NCBI RefSeq assembly: GCF_001642835.1
Contig: NZ_LXEI01000001.1
Location: 248,001-312,000 of the forward strand
Length of the DNA stretch: 64,000 nucleotides
Reading direction: 5' to 3'
Source: Pseudotamlana agarivorans
GTDB taxonomy: Bacteria > Bacteroidota > Bacteroidia > Flavobacteriales > Flavobacteriaceae
Shown here: positions 34,625 to 47,220 of the stretch, piece after piece
How the letters are laid out: every line of letters begins with the position of its first letter
Position numbering within the stretch: position 1 is the first letter of the stretch
Program-made: the position numbers and the translations under genes
The notes under the pieces: model-generated
What the model saw: the letters and a program-made list of their open reading frames with translations, nothing else
The model's database searches: none
Told to the model about the DNA's origin: nothing

Positions 34625-35395
34625 ATGAATAAAATACTTGCTACAACCTGCCTCCTATGTATGATCCTGTGCTCATGCCATAAAGATTTAGACGATGACG
34701 TTTTTCCGACTTCAGTCACATTCAATTTTAACCATTCATGGGACGACACACCTGTAACAGCCACGGATTTTAACAGCCTAAAATTCACCAATGCTCATGG
34801 AGAACTGCTTAGTATTTCAAAATTACGCTACCTCATTTCTAGGATTACTTTTGAAAAACCAAATGGCGAATATTTTACGTTTGACGACTATTTCCTTGTC
34901 GATTTAACTCAAGAAAACACCCTATCTCTCACCCCAAATAACACCATACCACCAGGAGAATACAGCCATGTATATTTCACTTTTGGTTTTAATAATGAAG
35001 ACAATTACATGAATTACACCGATTTGAATTCGGCATCATGGAACGTCCCAGAAATGCTTGGTGGCGGTTACCATTTTATGCAGTTAGAAGGCAAGTTTAT
35101 AGATGCAACGAATACTGAAACTGGCTATGCGTATCACTACATAAGAGCGGTAGACAACACCCAATCGCCATTGGTTTTTGAAGACACCTTTTTTACTGTT
35201 GACATAGGAGCTGTTAACCTAAGTAAGAGCACAAATTTTAACATGAATATGAATATTGCCGAATGGTTTAAAAACCCAAACACCTGGGATTTAAATCAAC
35301 TAAACAACATGCTAATGCCTAACTTTGATGCCCAAATGATGATGTACCAAAATCGTCAAAACGTCTTCAGTTTAGAATCTGTAAATCCGTTTTAA
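34625..35395 (+). CDS. MbnP-family lipoprotein
   Basis: 256 residues, lipobox ILCSC with Cys18. The mature protein fits the MbnP family (VTFNFNHSW, LRYLISRITFEKPNG, YSHVYFTFGF, GYHFMQLEGKF, NMNMNIAEWFKNPNTWD). In methanotrophs MbnP is the partner of MbnH, a MauG-like diheme enzyme that oxidises a tryptophan of MbnP to kynurenine, and the pair is linked to copper. Here the mature chain has W39, W139, W214 and W221 as candidates. The next gene, 3 bp on, is the MauG-like enzyme, which strongly supports the family assignment. Metal bound here is unknown. Confidence 0.85.
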   Translation: MNKILATTCLLCMILCSCHKDLDDDVFPTSVTFNFNHSWDDTPVTATDFNSLKFTNAHGELLSISKLRYLISRITFEKPNGEYFTFDDYFLVDLTQENTLSLTPNNTIPPGEYSHVYFTFGFNNEDNYMNYTDLNSASWNVPEMLGGGYHFMQLEGKFIDATNTETGYAYHYIRAVDNTQSPLVFEDTFFTVDIGAVNLSKSTNFNMNMNIAEWFKNPNTWDLNQLNNMLMPNFDAQMMMYQNRQNVFSLESVNPF

Positions 35396-35398
35396 ACT

Positions 35399-36463
35399 TT
35401 GAAAAAATGGCCGACATATCTTTTTATTCTTGTCATTTTCATAAGCACAGCTTGCTCTAAAGAAAATGAAGCTAGCTATGTCCCAACCCCTAGCCCTTTA
35501 AATATTCCACCTTTATTTGAATCGCTTATTTTATCACCTGTCATACCAGCAAACAATCCCCAAACTATAGAAGGAATTGCACTTGGTAAAAAGCTTTTTT
35601 TCGACCCTATTTTATCGATAGACAACAGTTTGGCCTGTGCCAATTGTCATGCGCCAGAATTAGCATTTTCAGATTCGGAAAGCATCAGCTCGGGTGTTAA
35701 TGGGACTTTAGGAAGTAGAAATGCGATGCCTCTTTTTAATTTAGCTTGGAATTACGACGAACTTTTCTTCTGGGACGGCAAAACCTTTAGCTTAGAACAT
35801 CAAGTATTTGTTCCAGTTACAGATCCCTTGGAGATGCAAAACACATGGCCCGTCGTTGAAAACAAATTACAGCAACATGCCGAATATCCGGAGCTCTTTG
35901 AAAAAGCCTTTGGGACTTCAAAAATTGATTCGGTTTTGGTTGGAAAAGCCATAGCCCAATTTGAACGCAGCCTAATTTCTGCGAATTCAAAATTTGACAA
36001 ATATTTACTTGGTGAAGCCGATTTAACCCCCGAAGAACGCAACGGATTTGAGGTCTTTATGGACGAAAACCGCGGCGATTGTTTTCATTGCCACGGCAGT
36101 GACAAAAATCCGTTATGGACAGACAACATATTCCATAACAACGGTTTAGATGAAAACTTTAAAGATCTGGGGCTAGGCGCGATAACCGGCGACCCTGCCG
36201 ATAACGGCAAATTTAAAACGCCATCACTGAGAAACTTAGCTTTTACAGCACCTTACATGCATGACGGACGCTTCCTAACTTTGGAAGACGTTATCAACCA
36301 CTACAGCGAAGGTTTAAAAAATTCAGCGACCATAGATCCGCTCATGAAAAAAGTGGCAAATGGTGGTGTAAATTTATCAGATAAAGACAAAGCCGATTTA
36401 AAAAAATTTCTACTTTCCCTATCTGATTATGAATTTGTTAATAATTCTTCTATTAACAAATAA
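35399..36463 (+). CDS. Diheme cytochrome c peroxidase / MauG-MbnH-like lipoprotein
   Basis: 354 residues from TTG 35399 (no ATG available before the lipobox STAC, Cys19). Two CxxCH haem-binding motifs are present: C80-C83-H84 (CANCH) and C228-C231-H232 (CFHCH), each in its own cytochrome c domain, with the family motifs LFFDPILS, FFWDGKTFSLEHQ and PYMHDGRFLTLEDVINHY. Such enzymes either reduce peroxide or, in the MauG/MbnH branch, use high-valent haem to modify a partner protein. The adjacent MbnP gene favours the latter. It is the last gene of the four-lipoprotein operon. No clear terminator follows. Confidence 0.88.
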   Translation: MKKWPTYLFILVIFISTACSKENEASYVPTPSPLNIPPLFESLILSPVIPANNPQTIEGIALGKKLFFDPILSIDNSLACANCHAPELAFSDSESISSGVNGTLGSRNAMPLFNLAWNYDELFFWDGKTFSLEHQVFVPVTDPLEMQNTWPVVENKLQQHAEYPELFEKAFGTSKIDSVLVGKAIAQFERSLISANSKFDKYLLGEADLTPEERNGFEVFMDENRGDCFHCHGSDKNPLWTDNIFHNNGLDENFKDLGLGAITGDPADNGKFKTPSLRNLAFTAPYMHDGRFLTLEDVINHYSEGLKNSATIDPLMKKVANGGVNLSDKDKADLKKFLLSLSDYEFVNNSSINK

Positions 36464-36524
36464 TAACAAAAAACTATAAAACTATTAACTAATATAATGT
36501 TAGGTTATGTGGTAATGCATGACT

Positions 36525-36540
36525 TATATTGTATATTTGC
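36525..36540 (+). promoter_or_regulatory. Promoter of the suf operon
   Basis: TATATTGTATATTTGC contains a perfect -7 element TATATTTG (36532-36539). The same 16-mer with one change stands before sufE (43601-43616). A -33 TTG is not clear. It gives a leader of about 117 bases before the first ATG; the leader has no recognisable riboswitch. Confidence 0.65.
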
Positions 36541-36660
36541 ACTCTATTTTAAAAATCGGTTTAAATAGAATAAATTAATATAATTTTAACCACTGATTTT
36601 TAAAGATAGTAGTTGCCATGTACAACAATAAATATAACATGATAAAATCGAACATAAATT

Positions 36661-36990
36661 ATGATAAAAGTTTCTGAAACTGCTAAAAAGAAAGTGATTG
36701 AGCTTATGACCGATGATGGTTATGACGCCTCAACAGATTATGTGCGCGTTGGAGTGAAAAGCGGTGGTTGTTCTGGTTTGTCGTACGATTTAAAATTCGA
36801 CAAAGAACAACAAGATGATGACAAAGTATTTGAAGACAATGGTGTAAAAATCATTGTTGACAAAAAAAGTTTTTTATATCTAATTGGCACCACTTTAGAA
36901 TATTCAGGTGGATTGAATGGGACGGGATTTGTTTTTAACAATCCAAATGCCAACCGAACTTGTGGTTGTGGCGAATCATTTTCGCTATAA
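36661..36990 (+). CDS. HesB/IscA/SufA-type iron-sulfur carrier
   Basis: 109 residues with the A-type carrier cysteines C37 (SGGCSGLSY), C101 and C103 (TCGCGESF). A-type proteins accept a cluster from the SufBCD scaffold and pass it to apoproteins. It is the first gene behind the suf promoter, 137 bp before sufB; the spacer holds an inverted repeat. SufA and IscA cannot be told apart reliably by sequence, so I leave out the symbol, but the context says SufA role. Confidence 0.92.
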   Translation: MIKVSETAKKKVIELMTDDGYDASTDYVRVGVKSGGCSGLSYDLKFDKEQQDDDKVFEDNGVKIIVDKKSFLYLIGTTLEYSGGLNGTGFVFNNPNANRTCGCGESFSL

Positions 36991-37016
36991 CAGAGGTTGA
37001 GAATTAATTTAAAAAA

Positions 37017-37109
37017 TTAAAGTTAAAAGTAAACGAAGTTTCGAAACTGTTAAGTGGGTTAATAAAATACCTAAACTCAACTTTATAACATGCTTACTTT
37101 CAACTTTAC
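37017..37109. repeat. ORF-less inverted-repeat element between the sufA-like gene and sufB
   Basis: TTAAAGTTAAAAGTAAAC (37017-37034) matches the reverse complement of 37092-37109 at 15 of 18 positions, with a 57-bp loop. The loop has a short inner hairpin (AGTTTCGAAACT). The AAGTTAAAAGT vocabulary is the same as in the repeat upstream of rng. It fills most of the spacer before sufB, so it would be a large hairpin in the suf mRNA. Confidence 0.55.
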
Positions 37110-37127
37110 AACAATATTATTAAAAAT

Positions 37128-38576
37128 ATGAGCAAGTATACCGAGGATGATTTACGCGAGGAGCTAAAAACCAAAGAATACGAATACGGGTTTTATACCG
37201 ATATTGAATCTGATACGTTTCCTAATGGGTTAAACGAAGATATTGTACGCGCTATTTCTAAGAAGAAAGAGGAGCCACAATGGATGACCGATTGGAGACT
37301 TGAAGCCTTTAGAGTTTGGGAACAAATGACAGAGCCAGAATGGGCAAACGTTCATTATACAAAACCAGATTTTCAAGGGATTTCATATTATTCTGCCCCA
37401 AACAGCAAGCCTAAGTACGATAGCATTGATGAAGTAGATCCAGAATTATTAGCGACTTTCGAAAAGCTAGGTATTTCTCTTGATGAGCAAAAGAAATTAG
37501 CAGGCGTAGCCATGGATGTGGTTGTTGATTCTGTTTCTGTTGCTACAACATTCAAGAAAACTTTAGGAGAAAAGGGTATTATTTTCATGAGTATTTCTGA
37601 GGCTATTAAAGAGCATCCAGAATTAGTAAAAAAATATTTAGGGACTGTAGTGCCTCAAAAAGATAATTTCTATGCCGCTTTAAACTCGGCCGTATTTAGT
37701 GATGGTTCTTTCTGTTACATTCCAAAAGGCGTAAAATGTCCAATGGAATTATCAACTTATTTCAGAATCAATCAAGCAGGTACCGGACAATTTGAGCGTA
37801 CGCTAGTTATTGCTGATGAAGGGAGTTACGTAAGTTACTTAGAAGGTTGTACGGCACCAAGTAGAGATGAAAATCAATTACACGCTGCCGTTGTAGAGCT
37901 TATTGCTTTAGACGATGCCGAAATAAAATACTCAACCGTTCAAAACTGGTTCCCAGGAAATGCCGAAGGTAAAGGTGGTGTTTACAACTTCGTAACCAAA
38001 CGTGGTTTATGTGAGAAAAACGCTAAAATTTCATGGACACAAGTAGAAACCGGTTCTGCTGTAACATGGAAATACCCATCTTGTATTTTAAAAGGTGATA
38101 ACTCGGTAGGTGAATTTTATTCTATTGCCGTAACCAACAATTACCAACAAGCCGATACAGGAACAAAAATGATTCACTTGGGAAAAAATACCAAATCAAC
38201 CATTATTTCTAAAGGAATTTCAGCAGGAAAATCACAAAACAGTTACCGTGGATTAGTACAAATTAATTCAAGAGCAGAAAACGCCCGTAACTTTTCACAA
38301 TGTGATAGTTTACTTATGGGTAATGAATGTGGCGCACATACGTTCCCATATATAGAAGCTAAAAATAAAACGGCAAAAATAGAACACGAAGCTACAACAA
38401 GTAAAATTGGTGAAGATCAAATTTTCTACTGTAACCAACGTGGTATCGATACAGAAAAGGCGATTGCTTTAATTGTAAACGGATTTAGTAAAGAGGTTTT
38501 AAATAAACTTCCAATGGAATTCGCTGTTGAAGCACAAAAATTATTAGAAATTAGTTTAGAAGGTAGTGTAGGATAA
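37128..38576 (+). CDS. sufB: SufB, Fe-S cluster scaffold subunit
   Basis: 482 residues, the usual length of SufB, with the typical N-terminal [20 protein letters not shown], the core beta-helix motifs ([21 protein letters not shown]) and the C-terminal [25 protein letters not shown]. SufB is the scaffold on which the SufBC2D complex builds a new cluster; C-rich core positions are kept ([19 protein letters not shown]). It is followed after 24 bp by a small lipoprotein gene and then sufC. Confidence 0.97.
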
Positions 38577-38600
38577 AACAGGAATCTATAGCGATTTAAA

Positions 38601-38987
38601 ATGAAAAAAATATTTTTTATCACATTAATTCTTACAGCATTTATAAGCTGTAAATCCGAATCTAAAACAGAGAACACCGTTTATAGCGACGACGAACTCA
38701 CAACCATAAAAGGTGAATTTGTGTATTTTGACGGTGCTGGGGTTATCCAAACACACCGTAAAATATATGGTGTTTTAGACTCTGAAAAATTAAAGGAGCT
38801 TAATAGCAAAGCAGATAAAATCAAAACAAAACCAACAGATATGGTTTTGGTGGAGATTAAAGGAAAAGTTACAGATCAAAAAGACGACGTTATACTTTGG
38901 GACAATAAGGTTGAAATTGTAGAAATACTTAAAGTAACACCTAACTCGAAAGAAAATAACGAAGTTGTAAAAATAGGAAACGAATAG
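38601..38987 (+). CDS. Small lipoprotein inside the suf operon
   Basis: 128 residues; lipobox AFISC with Cys17, then KSESKTENT. The mature part is about 110 residues with beta strands (IKGEFVYFDGAGVIQT, MVLVEIKGKVTDQKDDVILW) that look like a single OB-like or NlpE-like barrel; this is a shape guess, and no cysteine remains after the lipid Cys. It lies 24 bp after sufB and 4 bp before sufC, so it is translated with the cytoplasmic SUF machinery although it is exported to an outer or inner membrane. Why it is there is unknown. Confidence 0.75.
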   Translation: MKKIFFITLILTAFISCKSESKTENTVYSDDELTTIKGEFVYFDGAGVIQTHRKIYGVLDSEKLKELNSKADKIKTKPTDMVLVEIKGKVTDQKDDVILWDNKVEIVEILKVTPNSKENNEVVKIGNE

Positions 38988-38991
38988 AAGT

Positions 38992-39744
38992 ATGTTAAAA
39001 ATTGAGAATTTACACGCACGTGTTGAGGATAAAAACATTTTAAAAGGTATTAACCTTGAAGTGAAACCAGGCGAAGTTCATGCCATTATGGGACCAAACG
39101 GTTCAGGAAAAAGTACGCTTTCTTCTGTAATTGCAGGTAAAGAAGAGTATGAAGTAACCGAAGGTAAAATCTATTTTGAAGGTGAAGACATTGAAGAATT
39201 AGCTGCTGAAGAACGCGCACATAAAGGTGTGTTTTTGTCGTTTCAATACCCAGTTGAAATCCCTGGTGTATCGGTAACAAACTTTATCAAAACAGCGATT
39301 AACGAATCTAGAAAAGCAAAAGGTTTAGAGGAAATGCCTGCTAAAGATATGCTTAAGCTTATTCGCGAAAAGTCTGAAATGTTAGAAATCGATCGTAAAT
39401 TTTTATCACGTTCGTTAAACGAAGGTTTTTCTGGTGGTGAGAAAAAACGTAACGAGATTTTTCAAATGGCGATGCTTGAACCTAAATTGGCTATTCTTGA
39501 TGAAACCGATTCTGGATTAGATATCGATGCCCTTCGTATCGTTGCCAACGGTGTAAACAAACTAAAAAGTAAAGACAATGCTGTAGTTGTTATTACACAC
39601 TACCAACGTTTACTTGATTATATCGTTCCAGATTTCGTACACGTTTTACACAACGGGAAAATTGTAAAATCTGGTGGTAAAGAATTAGCTCACGAGCTAG
39701 AAGCCAAAGGTTACGATTGGATTAAAGAAGAAGCCTCTTTATAG
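38992..39744 (+). CDS. sufC: SufC, ATPase of the SUF scaffold
   Basis: 250 residues, an ABC-type ATPase with Walker A GPNGSGKST, the signature LNEGFSGGEKKRNEI, Walker B LAILDETDSGLD and an H-loop (VVVITHYQRLLD). SufC dimerises with SufB and SufD and drives cluster assembly with ATP. No membrane segment, as expected. The next gene, a four-helix-bundle protein, begins 32 bp later inside an inverted-repeat element. Confidence 0.97.
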   Translation: MLKIENLHARVEDKNILKGINLEVKPGEVHAIMGPNGSGKSTLSSVIAGKEEYEVTEGKIYFEGEDIEELAAEERAHKGVFLSFQYPVEIPGVSVTNFIKTAINESRKAKGLEEMPAKDMLKLIREKSEMLEIDRKFLSRSLNEGFSGGEKKRNEIFQMAMLEPKLAILDETDSGLDIDALRIVANGVNKLKSKDNAVVVITHYQRLLDYIVPDFVHVLHNGKIVKSGGKELAHELEAKGYDWIKEEASL

Positions 39745-39751
39745 TTTTTCT

Positions 39752-40208
39752 GTTTAAGGTTTAATGTTTCAAGTTCATGGCAACGATAACTAAATTTGAA
39801 GATTTAGAAACATGGAAAGAAGCTAGGCGTCTTTTTAATCAAATAAAAGACATTGCTAACGAAACAGATTTAAAAACAGATTATCGATTAAAAGACCAAA
39901 TAAAAGCGTCGTCCGGATCCGTAATGGATAATATCGCTGAAGGCTTTGAAAGAGATGGAAACTTAGAATTTCGTCAATTTCTTTCAATAGCAAAAGGTTC
40001 AGCTGGAGAAGCAAGGTCACAATTATATAGAGTTTTTGATTCAGAATATATTTCAGAAGAAAAATTCAGAACATTAGTATCAGATTATGAACAATTAAGC
40101 AAGCGATTATCCGCTTTCATTTTATATCTGAACAAAAAAGATTTTAAAGGAAACAAGTTTAAGTAATTAGGGTTGAGTCAACAACTTGAAACTTTTTAAA
40201 CCTTAAAC
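39752..40208 (+). mobile_element. Inverted-repeat element carrying a four-helix-bundle (IVP) gene
   Basis: The left arm (39752-39775) reads GTTTAAGGTTTAA, a short middle, then GTTTCAAGTT. The reverse complement of the right arm (40183-40208) reads the same 13 bases, a different middle, then the same 10 bases. The arms frame exactly one gene, that of the 23S rRNA intervening-sequence protein family, and nothing else. In mRNA the arms would pair and put the gene in the loop, just as the family's genes sit in hairpin intervening sequences of 23S rRNA. No target-site duplication or transposase is seen, so mobility is inferred. Confidence 0.6.
39777..40166 (+). CDS. Four-helix-bundle protein of the 23S rRNA IVP family
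   Basis: 129 residues of the S23/intervening-sequence protein family (TIGR02436-type): [17 protein letters not shown] at the start, then [20 protein letters not shown] and [21 protein letters not shown], and a last helix before a basic tail ([10 protein letters not shown]). Known members form pentameric four-helix bundles, and some (Avd) assist diversity-generating retroelements; neither a reverse transcriptase nor a variable repeat is seen here. The gene interrupts sufC and sufD and is flanked by inverted repeats, so it looks inserted rather than part of SUF. The ATG at 39777 begins right at the end of the left repeat. Confidence 0.88.
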
Positions 40209-40226
40209 TTGAAACGATTTATAACA

Positions 40227-41540
40227 ATGGATTTAAAAGACAAATTAGTATCATCATTTTTAGCATTTGAAAACAAGGTCGATGTCGACACTCACGTTCA
40301 TAATGTTAGATCTGAAGCTATAAAAATATTTGAAGAAAAAGGCTTTCCTACGAAAAAGGAAGAAGCTTGGAAATACACCTCTTTAAATAAATTATTAAAA
40401 GAAGATTATAGCGTTTTCCCAAAGCAAGAAAATGCATTAGATTATAAAGATGTTAAAAAATATTTCATCCACGAAATCGACACATATCATGTGGTTTTCA
40501 TCGATGGAAAATATTCATCACATTTATCCAACACCACACATGATGGTATCGATGTGTGCTTAATGTCTTCTGCTTTAACAAATCCGAAATACCGCTTAAT
40601 TATTGAAAACCATTTCAATAAAGCAGCGACTACCGATAGTTTACCATCGTTAAACACGGCGTTTTCACAAGAAGGTGTTTATATACACATTCCTAAAAAT
40701 AAAATTGCCGATAAACCCATTCAGTTTATCAATTTTTCAACAGGAAACGAATCGGCAACCCTACTTCAGCCTCGTAATTTAATTGTTGCTGAAGAGAATG
40801 CGCATGTTCAAATTATCGAGCGTCACCAAAGTTTAACAGAAAACCCTGTTTTAACCAATAGTGTAACCGAAATTTTCACTAAAAAACGTGCTATTGTCGA
40901 TTATTACAAAATTCAAAATGATGCCGAAAATGCCTCATTAATTGATAATACCTTCATTAAGCAACAACGTGAAAGTATTGCTTCGGTACATACATTCTCA
41001 TTTGGTGGAAAATTAACTAGAAATAATCTTAATTTCTTCCAAGAAGGAGAACGCATCGATTCTATATTAAAAGGGGTAACTATTCTTGGCGACAAACAAC
41101 ATGTCGATCACAATACTTTGGTACACCATATCGAACCTAATTGTGAGAGTCATCAAGATTACAAAGGTATTTTTGGTGATAGCTCTACAGGAGTTTTCAA
41201 CGGAAAAATTATTGTAGAAAAAGAAGCCCAAAAAACCAACGCTTTCCAAGCGAACAACAATATTTTAGTAAGCGATAAAGCAACGATCAATACTAAACCA
41301 CAATTGGAGATTTTTGCCGACGACGTAAAATGTTCTCACGGTTGTACTATTGGTCAACTAGACGAAAGTGCCATGTTTTACATGCAATCGCGTGGTATTC
41401 CTAAAAAAGAAGCTAAGGCACTTTTAATGTATGCCTTTAGTAATAACGTGTTAAGTTCGGTTAAAATACCTGAAATTAAACAACGTATCAATAAAATTAT
41501 AGCTAACAAATTGGGGGTTAGCATAGGTTTCGACCTTTAA
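40227..41540 (+). CDS. sufD: SufD, Fe-S cluster scaffold subunit
   Basis: 437 residues from ATG 40227; the TTG 18 bp upstream lies in the right repeat arm and is unlikely to be used. The sequence has the SufB/SufD C-terminal beta-helix (GIFGDSSTGVFNGKIIVEKEAQ) and the family end motif CSHGCTIGQLDESAMFYMQSRGIPKKEAKALLMYAFSNNVL. It partners SufB and SufC in the scaffold complex. The 39-nt spacing after the inserted element leaves translation independent of sufC. Confidence 0.95.
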   Translation: MDLKDKLVSSFLAFENKVDVDTHVHNVRSEAIKIFEEKGFPTKKEEAWKYTSLNKLLKEDYSVFPKQENALDYKDVKKYFIHEIDTYHVVFIDGKYSSHLSNTTHDGIDVCLMSSALTNPKYRLIIENHFNKAATTDSLPSLNTAFSQEGVYIHIPKNKIADKPIQFINFSTGNESATLLQPRNLIVAEENAHVQIIERHQSLTENPVLTNSVTEIFTKKRAIVDYYKIQNDAENASLIDNTFIKQQRESIASVHTFSFGGKLTRNNLNFFQEGERIDSILKGVTILGDKQHVDHNTLVHHIEPNCESHQDYKGIFGDSSTGVFNGKIIVEKEAQKTNAFQANNNILVSDKATINTKPQLEIFADDVKCSHGCTIGQLDESAMFYMQSRGIPKKEAKALLMYAFSNNVLSSVKIPEIKQRINKIIANKLGVSIGFDL

Positions 41541-41564
41541 TTTCTCTTAAACAAATTATTTTTT

Positions 41565-41630
41565 GAGCTCCTTCCCGCTTTCGGTTAAAGTACCAAAAGC
41601 GGGATCCAAGGACTCTCTGAGAGGAGCTTC
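41565..41630. repeat. REP-like hairpin between sufD and sufS
   Basis: CCCGCTTT (41574-41581) pairs with AAAGCGGG, and outer GAGCTCCTT with AAGGACTC. This is another frequent flavobacterial palindromic repeat. It occurs within the operon and is not followed by a T run, so it is not a clear terminator. Confidence 0.5.
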
Positions 41631-41666
41631 AACAACGCCTCAATCGGGGCCCAGACCAAACAAGCC

Positions 41667-42881
41667 ATGATCAACGTAGAAGACATCAGAAAAGATTTTC
41701 CCATTCTTTCTCGCAAAGTAAATGGCAAACCTTTAGTATATTTTGATAATGCAGCAACATCACAAACCCCAAAACAGGTTATTGATGTTATTGTAGACTA
41801 CTATTCAAATTACAATGCTAATATTCATCGTGGTGTTCATACTTTAAGTCAGGAGGCCACCGATTTATACGAGCAAGCACGTTATAAAATACAAGCGCAT
41901 TTTAATGCTAAGTTTTCTCATGAAATCATTTTCACTTCGGGAACTACCCATGGTATCAATTTAGTCGCAAATGGATTTTCATCACTTCTAAAAAAAGGTG
42001 ATGATATTATTGTATCGGCCTTAGAGCATCACTCTAATATTGTGCCTTGGCAAATGCTTTGTGAACGCACTGGAGCCACTTTAAAAGTTATTCCTATGAA
42101 TGACGATGGCGAATTGGTAATGAGTGAGTTTGATAAACTCCTTTCTGCAAATACGAAACTCGTTTTTACAAATCACGTTTCAAACGCATTAGGCACCGTA
42201 AATCCTATTGAATACATTATTGAAAAAGCCCATGAAGTTGGAGCAGCCGTTCTTATTGACGGAGCTCAATCTGCGCCACATATCAAACCTGATGTTCAAA
42301 AATTAGACGTCGATTTTTATGTGGTTTCTGCTCATAAAATGTGTGGTCCTACAGGCGTTGGCGCTTTATATGGAAAAGAAGCTTGGCTGAAAAAATTACC
42401 GCCATATCAAGGTGGTGGTGAAATGATTGCCGAAGTTACTTTTGAAAAAACCACCTATGCCGAATTGCCTCATAAGTTTGAAGCTGGTACACCAAATATT
42501 GCCGGCGGTATTGTTTTTGGAGCAGCTATCGATTATATGAACAACATCGGTTTTGAAGCCATAGCAAATTATGAAAATGAGCTACTGGAATACGCTACGG
42601 AAAAGCTTTTAAACATTGAAGGTTTAAAAATTTACGGTACTTCAAAACACAAAACCTCGGTGATTTCATTCAACTTAGAAGGCATTCACCCTTACGATGT
42701 AGGTACTATTTTAGACAAACTTGGTATTGCCGTTAGAACGGGACACCACTGTGCACAGCCTATCATGGATTACTATAAAATTCCAGGAACCGTTAGAGCA
42801 TCATTAGCTTTTTATAATACTAAAGCGGAAATAGATAGTCTTGTGGAAGGCGTTAAAAAAGCAAAAATGATGTTAGCTTAA
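41667..42881 (+). CDS. sufS: SufS, cysteine desulfurase
   Basis: 404 residues, class II desulfurase (SufS/CsdA type). K224 in SAHKMCGPTG binds PLP and C362 in RTGHHCAQP carries the persulfide, at positions close to E. coli SufS K226 and C364. Motifs YFDNAATSQTP and FTSGTTHGINLV fit. It removes sulfur from cysteine and hands it to SufE, encoded two genes on. The ATG start matches the family's first residues. Confidence 0.97.
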   Translation: MINVEDIRKDFPILSRKVNGKPLVYFDNAATSQTPKQVIDVIVDYYSNYNANIHRGVHTLSQEATDLYEQARYKIQAHFNAKFSHEIIFTSGTTHGINLVANGFSSLLKKGDDIIVSALEHHSNIVPWQMLCERTGATLKVIPMNDDGELVMSEFDKLLSANTKLVFTNHVSNALGTVNPIEYIIEKAHEVGAAVLIDGAQSAPHIKPDVQKLDVDFYVVSAHKMCGPTGVGALYGKEAWLKKLPPYQGGGEMIAEVTFEKTTYAELPHKFEAGTPNIAGGIVFGAAIDYMNNIGFEAIANYENELLEYATEKLLNIEGLKIYGTSKHKTSVISFNLEGIHPYDVGTILDKLGIAVRTGHHCAQPIMDYYKIPGTVRASLAFYNTKAEIDSLVEGVKKAKMMLA

Positions 42882-43025
42882 GGAAATACCTTCAGTTTTC
42901 TTTATTTTATCAGATTGTCGGTTATATGTCATAACATTGCTTTTGAAGTCAAGCTGAACCTTCTGAAATAAAAGTTTCAATAATTTATTTTAACTTCGCT
43001 AACAAACCTCGTTAAGTTTTTGATT

Positions 43026-43502
43026 ATGAAACTCGTAAACATTCTTTTTATAGTCTTATTGTCATTAAAAACTTGTGATACTTTAAGTACTACTAAAGCA
43101 AAAACTCAAGCTGGTGTTTCTAAAGAACAGCAAGCGGCTTCCGAAGGCTTAATTACTTTTGAATATCTGGCAACCACAAGAAATTCATATTATAAAATTA
43201 GAGTTATTGAAAACCTCATAGTCGTTAGTAAAAAGCGAGGAAAACCTGGAGCACCTGTCATGCTTCCACAACCAGAATGGGAACGGTTACTTGAACTTCT
43301 AGATGGTATTCAACTAAAAGAAATTCCAAAATTAAAAGCACCAAGTAAAAATTACGCCTTTGACGGTGCAGCACAAACCACACTAAAAGTCACCCTTAAC
43401 GAACATACCTACCAAACTCAAGCCTTCGACCAAGGCAATCCGCCAGAAGCCATTAAGGCACTAGTAAAAGAAATTACAGATCTGGCTACTAATATGGAAT
43501 AA
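43026..43502 (+). CDS. Hypothetical lipoprotein between sufS and sufE
   Basis: 158 residues from ATG 43026; the frame's TTG 6 bp upstream is not needed. A hydrophobic N-terminus ends at SLKTC (Cys17), a fair lipobox. The mature part has a Thr/Lys/Gln-rich linker (25-45) and a compact beta/alpha domain (ITFEYLATTRNSYYKIRV, LKVTLNEHTYQTQAFDQGNPPEAI). I know no function; similar proteins occur beside suf genes in relatives (from memory, not checked). It is preceded by 140 bp with a degenerate repeat. Confidence 0.7.
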   Translation: MKLVNILFIVLLSLKTCDTLSTTKAKTQAGVSKEQQAASEGLITFEYLATTRNSYYKIRVIENLIVVSKKRGKPGAPVMLPQPEWERLLELLDGIQLKEIPKLKAPSKNYAFDGAAQTTLKVTLNEHTYQTQAFDQGNPPEAIKALVKEITDLATNME

Positions 43503-43600
43503 GGAAAGAGAAACCAATTAAGCTTCCTTAAAGAAAATAAAAACACAAGAATCTGATATTTCAGTGGTATTTTAAAACCTTAATTTACCTAATAACTGTA

Positions 43601-43616
43601 TATATTGTATTTTTGC
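43601..43616 (+). promoter_or_regulatory. Promoter in front of sufE, twin of the suf operon promoter
   Basis: TATATTGTATTTTTGC carries a perfect -7 element TATTTTTG (43609-43616) and differs in one base from 36525-36540. It starts about 17 bp before sufE. The shared sequence upstream of the -7 element could be a common regulator contact. Confidence 0.6.
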
Positions 43617-43632
43617 TTAAAATTTGAGATTA

Positions 43633-44055
43633 ATGAGTATAGAAGAGATACAAAATGAAATCATAGATGAATTCTCAATGTTTGAAGATTGGGAAGAACG
43701 CTACCAATATATGATTGATTTAGGGAAAGATTTACCCCTTATCGAAGACCAATACAAAACGGACAGCAACATCATTAAAGGTTGCCAAAGTAAAGTTTGG
43801 GTACATGCCGAAATGCAAGACGATAAATTGGTATTTACTGCCGATAGTGATGCCATCATCACCAAAGGTATTATTGCGATTCTGATTCGTACTTTTTCTA
43901 ATCAGCATCCTAAAGATATCATTCATTCAGAAACTGATTTTATTGATAAAATCGGCCTTAAAGAACATTTATCGCCAACCCGAGCAAATGGTCTAATCAG
44001 TATGATAAAGCAATTAAAAATGTATGCAATTGCTTATCAGACTCAGTTGAAATAA
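43633..44055 (+). CDS. sufE: SufE, sulfur acceptor
   Basis: 140 residues from ATG 43633; the TTG 9 bp upstream was rejected because ATG gives MSIEEIQNEIIDEFSMFEDW, the family start. The active cysteine is C51 in NIIKGCQSKVW, at the E. coli SufE number. SufE takes persulfide sulfur from SufS and delivers it to SufBCD. It has its own promoter in addition to the operon. Confidence 0.95.
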   Translation: MSIEEIQNEIIDEFSMFEDWEERYQYMIDLGKDLPLIEDQYKTDSNIIKGCQSKVWVHAEMQDDKLVFTADSDAIITKGIIAILIRTFSNQHPKDIIHSETDFIDKIGLKEHLSPTRANGLISMIKQLKMYAIAYQTQLK

Positions 44056-44088
44056 TTTCTGTAAAAAAACAGGAAGCATAACAAACAG

Positions 44089-44108
44089 ATTTCCGCCTGC
44101 GCGGAAAT
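44089..44108. repeat. Short perfect palindrome before the DUF59 gene
   Basis: ATTTCCGC (44089-44096) and GCGGAAAT (44101-44108) with loop CTGC. Such TTCCGC palindromes recur in flavobacterial spacers; a weaker copy stands near 56835. There is no T run. Confidence 0.45.
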
Positions 44109-44128
44109 GAAAATAAAATTATAAGATT

Positions 44129-44452
44129 ATGAGTGAAAATATAGATACCGCCGAACTCGGCGAAAAAATTGTAAACGTTTTAAAAACTATTTACGATCCT
44201 GAAATTCCAGTAGACATTTACGAATTAGGATTAATCTACGATGTTTTTGTTAACGAAGACAATGATGTTAAGATCTTAATGACTTTAACAACACCTAATT
44301 GTCCTGTTGCTGAAACCCTTCCTTTAGAGGTAGAAGAGAAAGTAAAATCTCTTGACGAAGTTAAGGATGCCGAAGTTGAAATTACTTTCGATCCACCTTG
44401 GACTCAAGAACTGATGAGCGAAGAGGCGAAATTGGAATTGGGTATGCTTTAG
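44129..44452 (+). CDS. DUF59 / MIP18-family (SufT-like) assembly protein
   Basis: 107 residues with the DUF59 core: KTIYDPEIPVDIYELGLIYDV, then TLTTPNCPVAETLP with a conserved cysteine, and VEITFDPPWT. MIP18/SufT-like proteins help iron-sulfur cluster maturation or transfer, in an auxiliary way. Its place between sufE and a DUF2480 gene in the SUF locus agrees. Whether it matches SufT proper cannot be settled here. Confidence 0.9.
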   Translation: MSENIDTAELGEKIVNVLKTIYDPEIPVDIYELGLIYDVFVNEDNDVKILMTLTTPNCPVAETLPLEVEEKVKSLDEVKDAEVEITFDPPWTQELMSEEAKLELGML

Positions 44453-44543
44453 AATTAATTAATAATTAAAAGTTAACAATTAATTGCTCCTGTTTCTTCC
44501 ACAAAATATCACTTAACGGTATATTAAAAAAACAAACATTTAT

Positions 44544-45050
44544 ATGGCTGATGAAATCATCAATCGCGTAGCGAATAGCAAATTAATCACGATAAACCTA
44601 GAGGATTATTACCCTAAAGGCAACCGTGTGTTATTTGACATTAAAGATTGGCTTTACGAAGGTTTTGTGCTTCGTGAAAAAGACTTTAGAGAGCAGGTTG
44701 CCAACTTCGATTGGAATCAATTTCAAGACCAGTATGTTGCCTTAACCTGTAGTTCTGATGCCATCATTCCAGGATGGGCCTATATGTTGCTTAGTATTCA
44801 ATTGCAACCTTTTGCAAAAAAAATTGTAGTTGGTAGTTTGGACAACCTTGAAACGTCCATATACCAAGACGTGATTAAGCAATTGGATGTTTCTGAATTT
44901 AAAGGAAAACCTATTATTATAAAAGGTTGCTCGAACAAACCAGTCCCTCAAAATGCCTACATCATGCTTGCTAATAAATTGCAGCCGGTTGCTAAATCCA
45001 TTATGTATGGCGAAGCCTGTTCGTCCGTACCCTTATACAAAAACAAATAA
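44544..45050 (+). CDS. DUF2480 family protein
   Basis: 168 residues, cytoplasmic, of a family restricted to Bacteroidota and close relatives. It has cysteines in TCSSDAI, IKGCSNKPVP and GEACSSVPLY, and repeats a WAYMLLSIQLQPFAKKIVVG / NAYIMLANKLQPVAKSIMYG segment twice, pointing to an internal duplication. Function is unknown; the regular position at the end of SUF loci suggests an iron-sulfur link (inference). Confidence 0.88.
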   Translation: MADEIINRVANSKLITINLEDYYPKGNRVLFDIKDWLYEGFVLREKDFREQVANFDWNQFQDQYVALTCSSDAIIPGWAYMLLSIQLQPFAKKIVVGSLDNLETSIYQDVIKQLDVSEFKGKPIIIKGCSNKPVPQNAYIMLANKLQPVAKSIMYGEACSSVPLYKNK

Positions 45051-47091: not shown

Positions 47092-47220
47092 AAAAGGTCT
47101 TAAAAGTTAAAACAAGCGTCATTCTGTGCTCGACACAGAATCTCATGATATTGAACTTCAATGATTATGAGAATCTGAAATAAATTCAGATTGACGTAAA
47201 ATTAACTTTTAAGACCTTTT
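47092..47220. terminator. Split bidirectional terminator with a REP pair in the loop
   Basis: AAAAGGTCTTAAAAGTTAA (47092-47110) and its exact reverse complement (47202-47220) make a perfect 19-bp stem between convergent genes. The loop is not short: 47115-47197 holds a palindromic repeat, CGTCATTCTG...CAGAATCTCAT against ATGAGAATCTG...CAGATTGACG. The simplest reading is that a REP-like pair inserted into the loop of a terminator. Confidence 0.8.

Follow-up and report, generated by a model that had tools for sequence, protein, structure and literature searches.

Intervening-sequence protein genes framed by inverted heptamer-like word arrays, from a cassette in the suf operon of Pseudotamlana agarivorans to other bacterial operons

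Between sufC and sufD of Pseudotamlana agarivorans, a gene of the intervening-sequence protein (IVP, S23p) family lies in the loop of a predicted stem whose two arms are arrays of heptamer-like words. Genes of this family recur in other operons between inverted arms of their own, and the family of the arm words is associated with the family of the IVP protein. In Flavobacteriaceae, they are mostly read in the same direction as their neighbours, their presence varies between related species, and the suf-type protein evolves under purifying selection. With somewhat more confidence than doubt, these features can be read together as an operon-mRNA cassette of the intervening-sequence (IVS) type whose protein is matched to its own words, the cassette being either a slow selfish element or a processing hairpin partly exploited by its host.

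The cassette between sufC and sufD

The features of the cassette are collected in Table 1, with positions counted in the window, i.e., the whole stretch of 64,000 nucleotides that was analysed. The first-pass annotation had claimed arms of 13 and 10 matching bases around a single IVP-family gene between sufC and sufD. The arms are present base for base, and the location is borne out by the ORF list and the sequence. The outer pair, GTTTAAGGTTTAA (39752-39764) and TTAAACCTTAAAC (40196-40208), matches at 13/13 bases and the inner pair, GTTTCAAGTT (39766-39775) and AACTTGAAAC (40183-40192), at 10/10. Both are successive parts (13 + 10 bp) of a single 23-bp stem, separated in the predicted fold by a small internal loop of 1 and 3 nt, with the gene in the terminal loop and its ATG one base after the end of the 5' arm. 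The minimum-energy RNA fold of 39745-40215 (471 nt) contains this stem (-100.9 kcal/mol, z -3.7), with 0/100 shuffles as good, and the duplex energy of the arms is -24.8 kcal/mol. A fixed-geometry inverted-repeat scan of 2,528 window positions has its maximum at the same cassette (18.0; 99th percentile 12.0).

Table 1. Features of the suf region in the window.
Feature	Position	Strand	Basis
sufA-sufB spacer, decayed remnant of a second IVP cassette	36991..37127	+	spacer comparison, self-complementarity
sufC, upstream neighbour	38992..39744	+	ORF list
5' arm GTTTAAGGTTTAATGTTTCAAGTT, heptamer-like words GTTTAAG GTTTAAT GTTTCAA	39752..39775	+	sequence, inverted repeats, fold
IVP / four-helix-bundle gene, 129 aa	39777..40166	+	PF05635, TIGR02436, PDB matches
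3' arm AACTTGAAACTTTTTAAACCTTAAAC, complement of the 5' arm	40183..40208	+	sequence, inverted repeats, fold, duplex energy
Further words prolonging the 3' array, in part overlapping: CTTAAACTTGAAAC	40202..40215	+	sequence, word-pattern matches
sufD, downstream neighbour, ATG at 40227	40227..41540	+	ORF list, sequence

The protein matches the profiles PF05635 (2.4e-31, the only match in Pfam) and TIGR02436 (1.3e-28), with 2gsc (1.8e-6) and 2rld (2.2e-4) as solved relatives in the PDB. The cassette sits in the sufC-sufD spacer outside any rRNA gene, and positions 36000-43000 have no Rfam match. The annotation had also noted neither transposase nor reverse transcriptase near by, which agrees with what was found. 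No transposase is seen by eye among the ORFs listed for 35,000-45,000, and no match to PF00078, the reverse-transcriptase family, occurs in six Tamlana genomes (the own genome, G000, and G001 to G005), so that a reverse-transcriptase partner is not needed in Tamlana.

Site history and selection in the suf operon

A SufC relative at E<=1e-70 is present in all 60 family genomes, and the IVP gene occupies few of the corresponding spacers: after removal of one duplicate row, 8/65 sufC-sufD spacers (6 Tamlana, 59 from other genera) hold it and 57/65 do not. Outside Tamlana, the cassette occurs, for example, in Flavobacterium johnsoniae strain CI04 (L231). Empty sites among relatives are plentiful; the annotation had named the opposite outcome, a gene fixed at this site throughout the Flavobacteriaceae, as fatal to its proposal. 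Within Tamlana, five of the six genomes have the IVP at sufC-sufD, and two of these five copies are broken, by in-frame stops in G002 and by a frameshift split in G001. The sixth genome (G005) has a hairpin of CAGT words without IVP, and similar CAGT spacers are found in other genera; among IVP-less spacers of 40-300 nt, 12/41 are self-complementary at p<=0.05. A comparison of the sufA-sufB spacer in the own genome and G001-G004 shows a full-length IVP in G003 and G004; in the window, G001, and G002, what is left of it is a decayed remnant.

Among the 80 nearest relatives of the window IVP, 67 lie in suf by the neighbour test and three more stand, by eye, upstream of a SufC-like start. A full frame runs from the matched start in 73 of the 80, with an early stop in the remaining seven. 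The dN/dS of the suf-type IVP has a median of 0.086 (IQR 0.063-0.124, 298 pairs), and IVP identity tracks SufC identity over 62 loci (rho 0.72, vs at most 0.24 in 300 permutations). Purifying selection acts on the suf-type protein, which is largely co-inherited with the operon.

Inverted arms at other IVP loci

At least one IVP is found in 45/60 family genomes and 88/118 phylum genomes, and the six Tamlana genomes have 8 (own genome), 10, 13, 6, 14, and 5 matches, fragments counted. On inspection by eye, short words flank most copies, inverted from one side to the other and varying by locus. The annotation had asked for the same arms at other IVP genes and had considered their absence in close relatives fatal. 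Inverted arms do recur around the IVP genes of relatives, with a sequence that changes from locus to locus; a fixed mobile element with constant ends was rejected because the arms differ in this way. For 51 Tamlana loci, the mean own-pair arm score is 16.3 vs 9.64 (sd 0.35) for permuted pairs, with 0/20,000 permutations as high, and the own partner arm is best or tied best in 23/51. The 122 loci of Tamlana and the family (126 collected minus 4 with short flanks; related loci are not independent) give 15.1 vs 9.26 (sd 0.17), again 0/20,000; their own-pair score exceeds the 95th percentile of cross-locus pairs in 76 and the 99th in 43, and is not above the 95th in 46. In a draw across the phylum (29 loci, four in the own family), own pairs score 13.7 vs 8.95 (sd 0.36; 0/5,000), and 15/29 loci exceed the cross-locus 95th percentile. 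Own pairs in direct orientation are also raised (12.5 vs 9.5 for the 122 loci, 13.5 vs 9.7 for the 51 Tamlana loci); the arrays therefore share words unflipped too.

A strong flank, defined as a stretch with >=18 matches in 21 at one lag, is present in 36/236 IVP flanks, the best lag being 7 in 24.5 and 14 in 8.5, vs 1/231 random window stretches, which are mostly coding DNA. On the coding strand, the 5' arm usually has G over C (61 positive, 11 negative, n=77 Flavobacteriaceae loci with arms). Stem mismatches are not biased towards sense-strand G-U (111 vs 134 in 77 loci, 44 vs 42 in 65, 14 vs 18 in 11), and duplex energy has no strand preference over 117 loci (antisense -46.2 vs -47.2 kcal/mol). 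Strand-neutral mismatches and an antisense strand that pairs equally well argue against RNA-level selection on the stem, and, given the lack of G-U bias, the arms may be maintained at the DNA level.

Association of the word family with the protein family

Word similarity between loci at different sites (194 loci) stays at background until IVP identity reaches about 50% and rises beyond. With one locus for each of 41 sites, IVP pairs >50% identical have a crosswise inverted score of 20.7 vs 17.8 (sd 0.47). In a comparison of same-side arms, some N-terminal coding DNA is included and sites are loosely defined; crosswise and downstream-only scores with strict sites (distinct where no neighbouring frame is in common within 1.5 kb) were therefore preferred, and the result held. 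For 34 strict sites and IVP pairs >50% identical, the crosswise score is 20.8 vs 17.9 (sd 0.53), with p<=0.01 in 40/40 draws, and for the downstream noncoding arm taken by itself the score is 10.0 vs 8.4 (sd 0.33), with p<=0.01 in 38/40 draws, a test that is weaker at other identity cut-offs (30 to 32/40 draws). Nor does the trend depend on suf: with suf-type loci removed, different-site pairs score 17.2 below 40% IVP identity (4,060 pairs), 18.7 at 50-60% (184 pairs), and 22.2 above 60% (50 pairs).

The 80 nearest relatives of the window IVP carry, by eye, GTTT(A/C)-type words almost throughout. This includes the ten that lie at non-suf operons, which share 0 sites with the suf group under the strict test and score crosswise 26.8 with the suf copies in 670 pairs, vs a background of 17.6. 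Where IVPs are related, their words are related as well, even at unrelated operons, so that the word goes with the protein. Within the GTTT(A/C) subfamily, the two arms tend to agree in their choice of A or C (rho 0.72 over 68 loci) and a locus pairs better with its own arm (18.0 vs 14.5 in 73 intact loci; 0/5,000), common ancestry adding to both the correlation and the own-arm preference.

Orientation and host operons

Both neighbours, called mechanically as the longest frames, are visible at 117/126 Flavobacteriaceae loci, and the IVP gene is co-directional with both in 112/117. The remaining loci have one opposed neighbour (4 and 1), and none is antisense in a co-directional spacer; for comparison, 34/49 gene pairs in the window are co-directional. 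The rule is weaker outside Flavobacteriaceae: of the 28 loci in the phylum draw at which both neighbours are visible, 21 are co-directional with both and two are antisense (L364, L365), as compared with 13/18 cyanobacterial loci (annotated neighbours) and three antisense (L374, L375, L386). Such a bias can arise simply from reliance of the cassette on the operon promoter. From the sequences of the neighbours, host operons include groES-groEL (L021), atpA-atpG (L048), hisH-hisA (L055), moaE-moaC (L003), ffh-folD (L005), and cysD-cysN (L002), which, on a reading of these neighbours, appear to have no function in common.

Gain, loss, and arrays without IVP

The cassette at the L047 site is in G004 only, and its arms are absent from all five empty sites. 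At groES-groEL, the cassette is in G001 only; four empties hold an unrelated short sequence, and the fifth, G004, an array without IVP whose words belong to the class of the G001 cassette. At atpA-atpG, the IVP is in G004. Its words recur without the gene as a hairpin in the own genome, similar arrays occur in G002 and G005, and a different repeat is found in G001 and G003. The thiD site was left out, as its upstream DNA is not orthologous. From these three comparisons, cassette and arms can therefore come or go jointly, and arms can stand alone. The exact boundaries that the annotation hoped to see in aligned empty sites did not emerge: insertion boundaries are not exact, spacers look replaced wholesale, and no target-site duplication is seen by eye.

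In the own genome, the GTTT word pattern has 26 matches vs 7 for its control. Two fall at the sufC-sufD 3' array (G000:C1:288195-288208 and 288202-288215); among 11 further GTTT stretches, five are within long reading frames and six are intergenic arrays with no IVP in view. One array (L400, G000:C49 198699-198775) consists of eleven exact tandem GTTTAAG copies, also intergenic and with no IVP in view. A search for the CAGT pattern in Tamlana was uninformative, as its reversed-pattern control picked up other word arrays and outnumbered the pattern in four of six genomes. Other IVP-less spacers, L330-L333 (upstream of an acyl-CoA dehydrogenase-like gene), L309, and L311, often have CCTCCCC/GGGGAGG hairpins, which looks as if entire spacers were swapped between one repeat family and another. 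A separate repeat type in the window, between convergent frames, is a perfect 19-nt inverted repeat (47092-47110 / 47202-47220) around 91 nt, with an inner CATTCTG-type palindrome.

Small GIY-YIG genes are found at Tamlana spacers that hold an IVP in other species: hisH-hisA in G002 (L325) and G001 (L326), and cysD-cysN in G003 (L335), where the gene is framed by inverted CTGAGCCTGTCGAAG-type repeats. PF01541 matches L325 (3.2e-17) and L335 (3.4e-19), L326 being recognized by eye. IVP and GIY-YIG are reported to be among the proteins encoded by insertions in rRNA genes of CPR bacteria (PMC11270868), and the occurrence of both families there and at the same spacers here suggests a parallel cassette family.

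Cyanobacterial plasmids and an rRNA gene

In tblastn searches of plasmids, the window protein matches 21 records and a cyanobacterial IVP protein 27; the latter matches no phage record. The 18 cyanobacterial plasmid loci analysed (hits H10, H11, H29, H31, H42, H47, and H48 left out), with L376/L389 and L382/L384 as close pairs, have an own-pair score of 17.2 vs 10.2 (sd 1.5), 29/20,000 permutations being as high; the score is >=14 in 10/18 and lower in 8/18. The arm words of the ten higher-scoring loci include GGGAGTA, GGTGACA, GGGAAAA, GGGAACA, and GGGTGTA. In a Geminocystis plasmid (L378), an IVP with GGGAAAA arms lies between AAA-family ATPase and ParB-family genes. Others neighbour cas genes, namely cas6-cas4 (L373 and L377, in two genera) and cas10-cmr3 (L381); given their heptamer-like arms, they may be spacer residents and not CRISPR parts, which is a caution against reading IVP genes beside cas genes as CRISPR components. 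A figure legend on CRISPR-linked genes includes IVP (PMC10910872).

Such arms are also found at one locus each in Gemmatirosa (27.0) and Azospirillum (23.5). The IVP of Azospirillum lipoferum (L390) is within the 23S rRNA gene (RF02541), between arms of GGACGGA/GGACAGA-type heptamers. The insertion lies in a hairpin of the RF02541 model near position 1218, which the arms prolong in the predicted fold (z -10.5). This hairpin is, we assume, helix 45; the abstract on the Coxiella IVS names the helix 45 site too. This single case is a bridge between rRNA IVSs and operon cassettes.

Possible explanations

In the reading preferred here, two inverted arrays of heptamer-like words would pair into a stem whose loop contains the IVP gene, and the cassette would persist mainly where it is transcribed by a host operon running in the same direction. 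The protein would probably bind its own stem, as RNA or as extruded DNA, and may play a role in the spread of the cassette, although no mechanism by which IVP proteins transpose is known to us. By analogy with rRNA, RNase III or a similar enzyme would probably cleave the stem and leave the cistrons separate and unligated. As presence varies between species and the stay at suf is long and under selection, the cassette would be a slow selfish element or a host-exploited processing hairpin. The IVS-like mRNA element of the first-pass annotation therefore survives in its anatomy, a gene in a stem-loop within an operon, which generalises to other loci; a freely moving element is disfavoured because inheritance at suf is largely vertical (rho 0.72) and neither exact boundaries nor target duplications are seen.

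The many word arrays without IVP count against the cassette reading. Together with the strand-neutral stem mismatches, such arrays and hairpins (the eleven GTTTAAG copies of L400, the CAGT hairpins of sufC-sufD spacers) favour a passenger role, in which replication slippage grows heptamer arrays in operon spacers, hairpin-templated DNA correction keeps the arms complementary, and IVP genes merely land there. This account is quite unlikely: it leaves unexplained why the word family tracks the IVP family at unrelated sites and why orientation is biased, and the arms are absent at the five L047 empties and at four of the five groES-groEL empties. The low dN/dS (0.086), the vertical inheritance with SufC (62 loci), and the position of 67/80 nearest relatives in suf, plus three upstream of a SufC-like start, would suit a host regulator, i.e., a resident operon protein of minor mobility that binds the intercistronic hairpin and tunes cistron ratio or stability. 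Yet the IVP is in just 8/65 sufC-sufD spacers and broken in 2/5 Tamlana suf copies, the flanking operons appear by reading to lack a common function, and one copy is in rRNA, so a regulator of this kind is unlikely, if worth keeping in mind. Inverted ends and presence/absence between species are also expected of an ordinary non-autonomous transposon mobilized by a transposase in trans, with the IVP as cargo, but ends that vary by locus and follow the IVP, the orientation bias, and the lack of visible target duplication make it highly improbable.

More widely, and with more doubt than belief, IVPs might be phylum-spanning readers of seven-base words with subfamily-specific heptamer stems. Their cassettes would then colonise stem-loops of any transcribed RNA, operon mRNA or rRNA, and the heptanucleotide repeats of cyanobacteria and Bacteroidota would be their footprints, with or without the gene. 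The link by which the word follows the protein, in operons and one rRNA gene, joins the function of IVP (S23p) proteins and the origin of heptanucleotide repeats in cyanobacteria and other bacteria into one testable question.

Comparison with known systems

Individual IVP genes are mentioned in Flavobacterium: one is differentially expressed in F. psychrophilum (PMC5787105) and another lies between guanylate kinase and a nicotinate-mononucleotide adenylyltransferase in F. columnare (PMC5524665). Among the titles and abstract openings surveyed in open-access PMC, none describes the word-IVP association. PF05635 resembles Avd, the accessory protein of diversity-generating retroelements (DGRs; PMC10053308), which have a reverse transcriptase as partner, whereas PF00078 is in 0/6 Tamlana genomes. 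REPIN/RAYT systems (PMC3116915 and others) likewise combine paired inverted repeats matched to a protein family with many gene-less copies, but their protein is a tyrosine (HUH) transposase and that of the cassette a four-helix bundle. DNA transposons and IS elements have constant ends and a target duplication, in contrast to cassette arms, which are locus- and subfamily-specific with no duplication seen.

Cyanobacterial STRRs are heptanucleotide short tandem repeats. The strongest IVP flanks, too, are tandem degenerate units of 7, and the 5' arm in the window consists of three 7-nt words. The TAACTGA heptamers of Beggiatoaceae are direct repeats upstream of start codons (PMC4679880); the main text of that article does not contain the terms S23, four helix, or intervening. 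Like the cassette arms, STRR and TAACTGA repeats have a unit of 7 and are intergenic.

The closest likeness in anatomy is with 23S rRNA IVSs carrying an S23p/IVP frame, as in Coxiella and Leptospira (PMC4990558): in both, the gene is in the loop of a terminal-inverted-repeat stem and the distribution is patchy. In the Coxiella IVS, the stem has 28 bp, interrupted by one mismatch and a bulge (PMC4990558), whereas the sufC-sufD cassette has 23 bp with a small internal loop, lies between cistrons of a protein operon, and has heptamer-like arms, and cleavage of its stem would follow by analogy with the rRNA IVS. The Azospirillum lipoferum IVS (L390) likewise has an IVP and inverted heptamer arms but, unlike the sufC-sufD cassette, lies inside a 23S rRNA gene.
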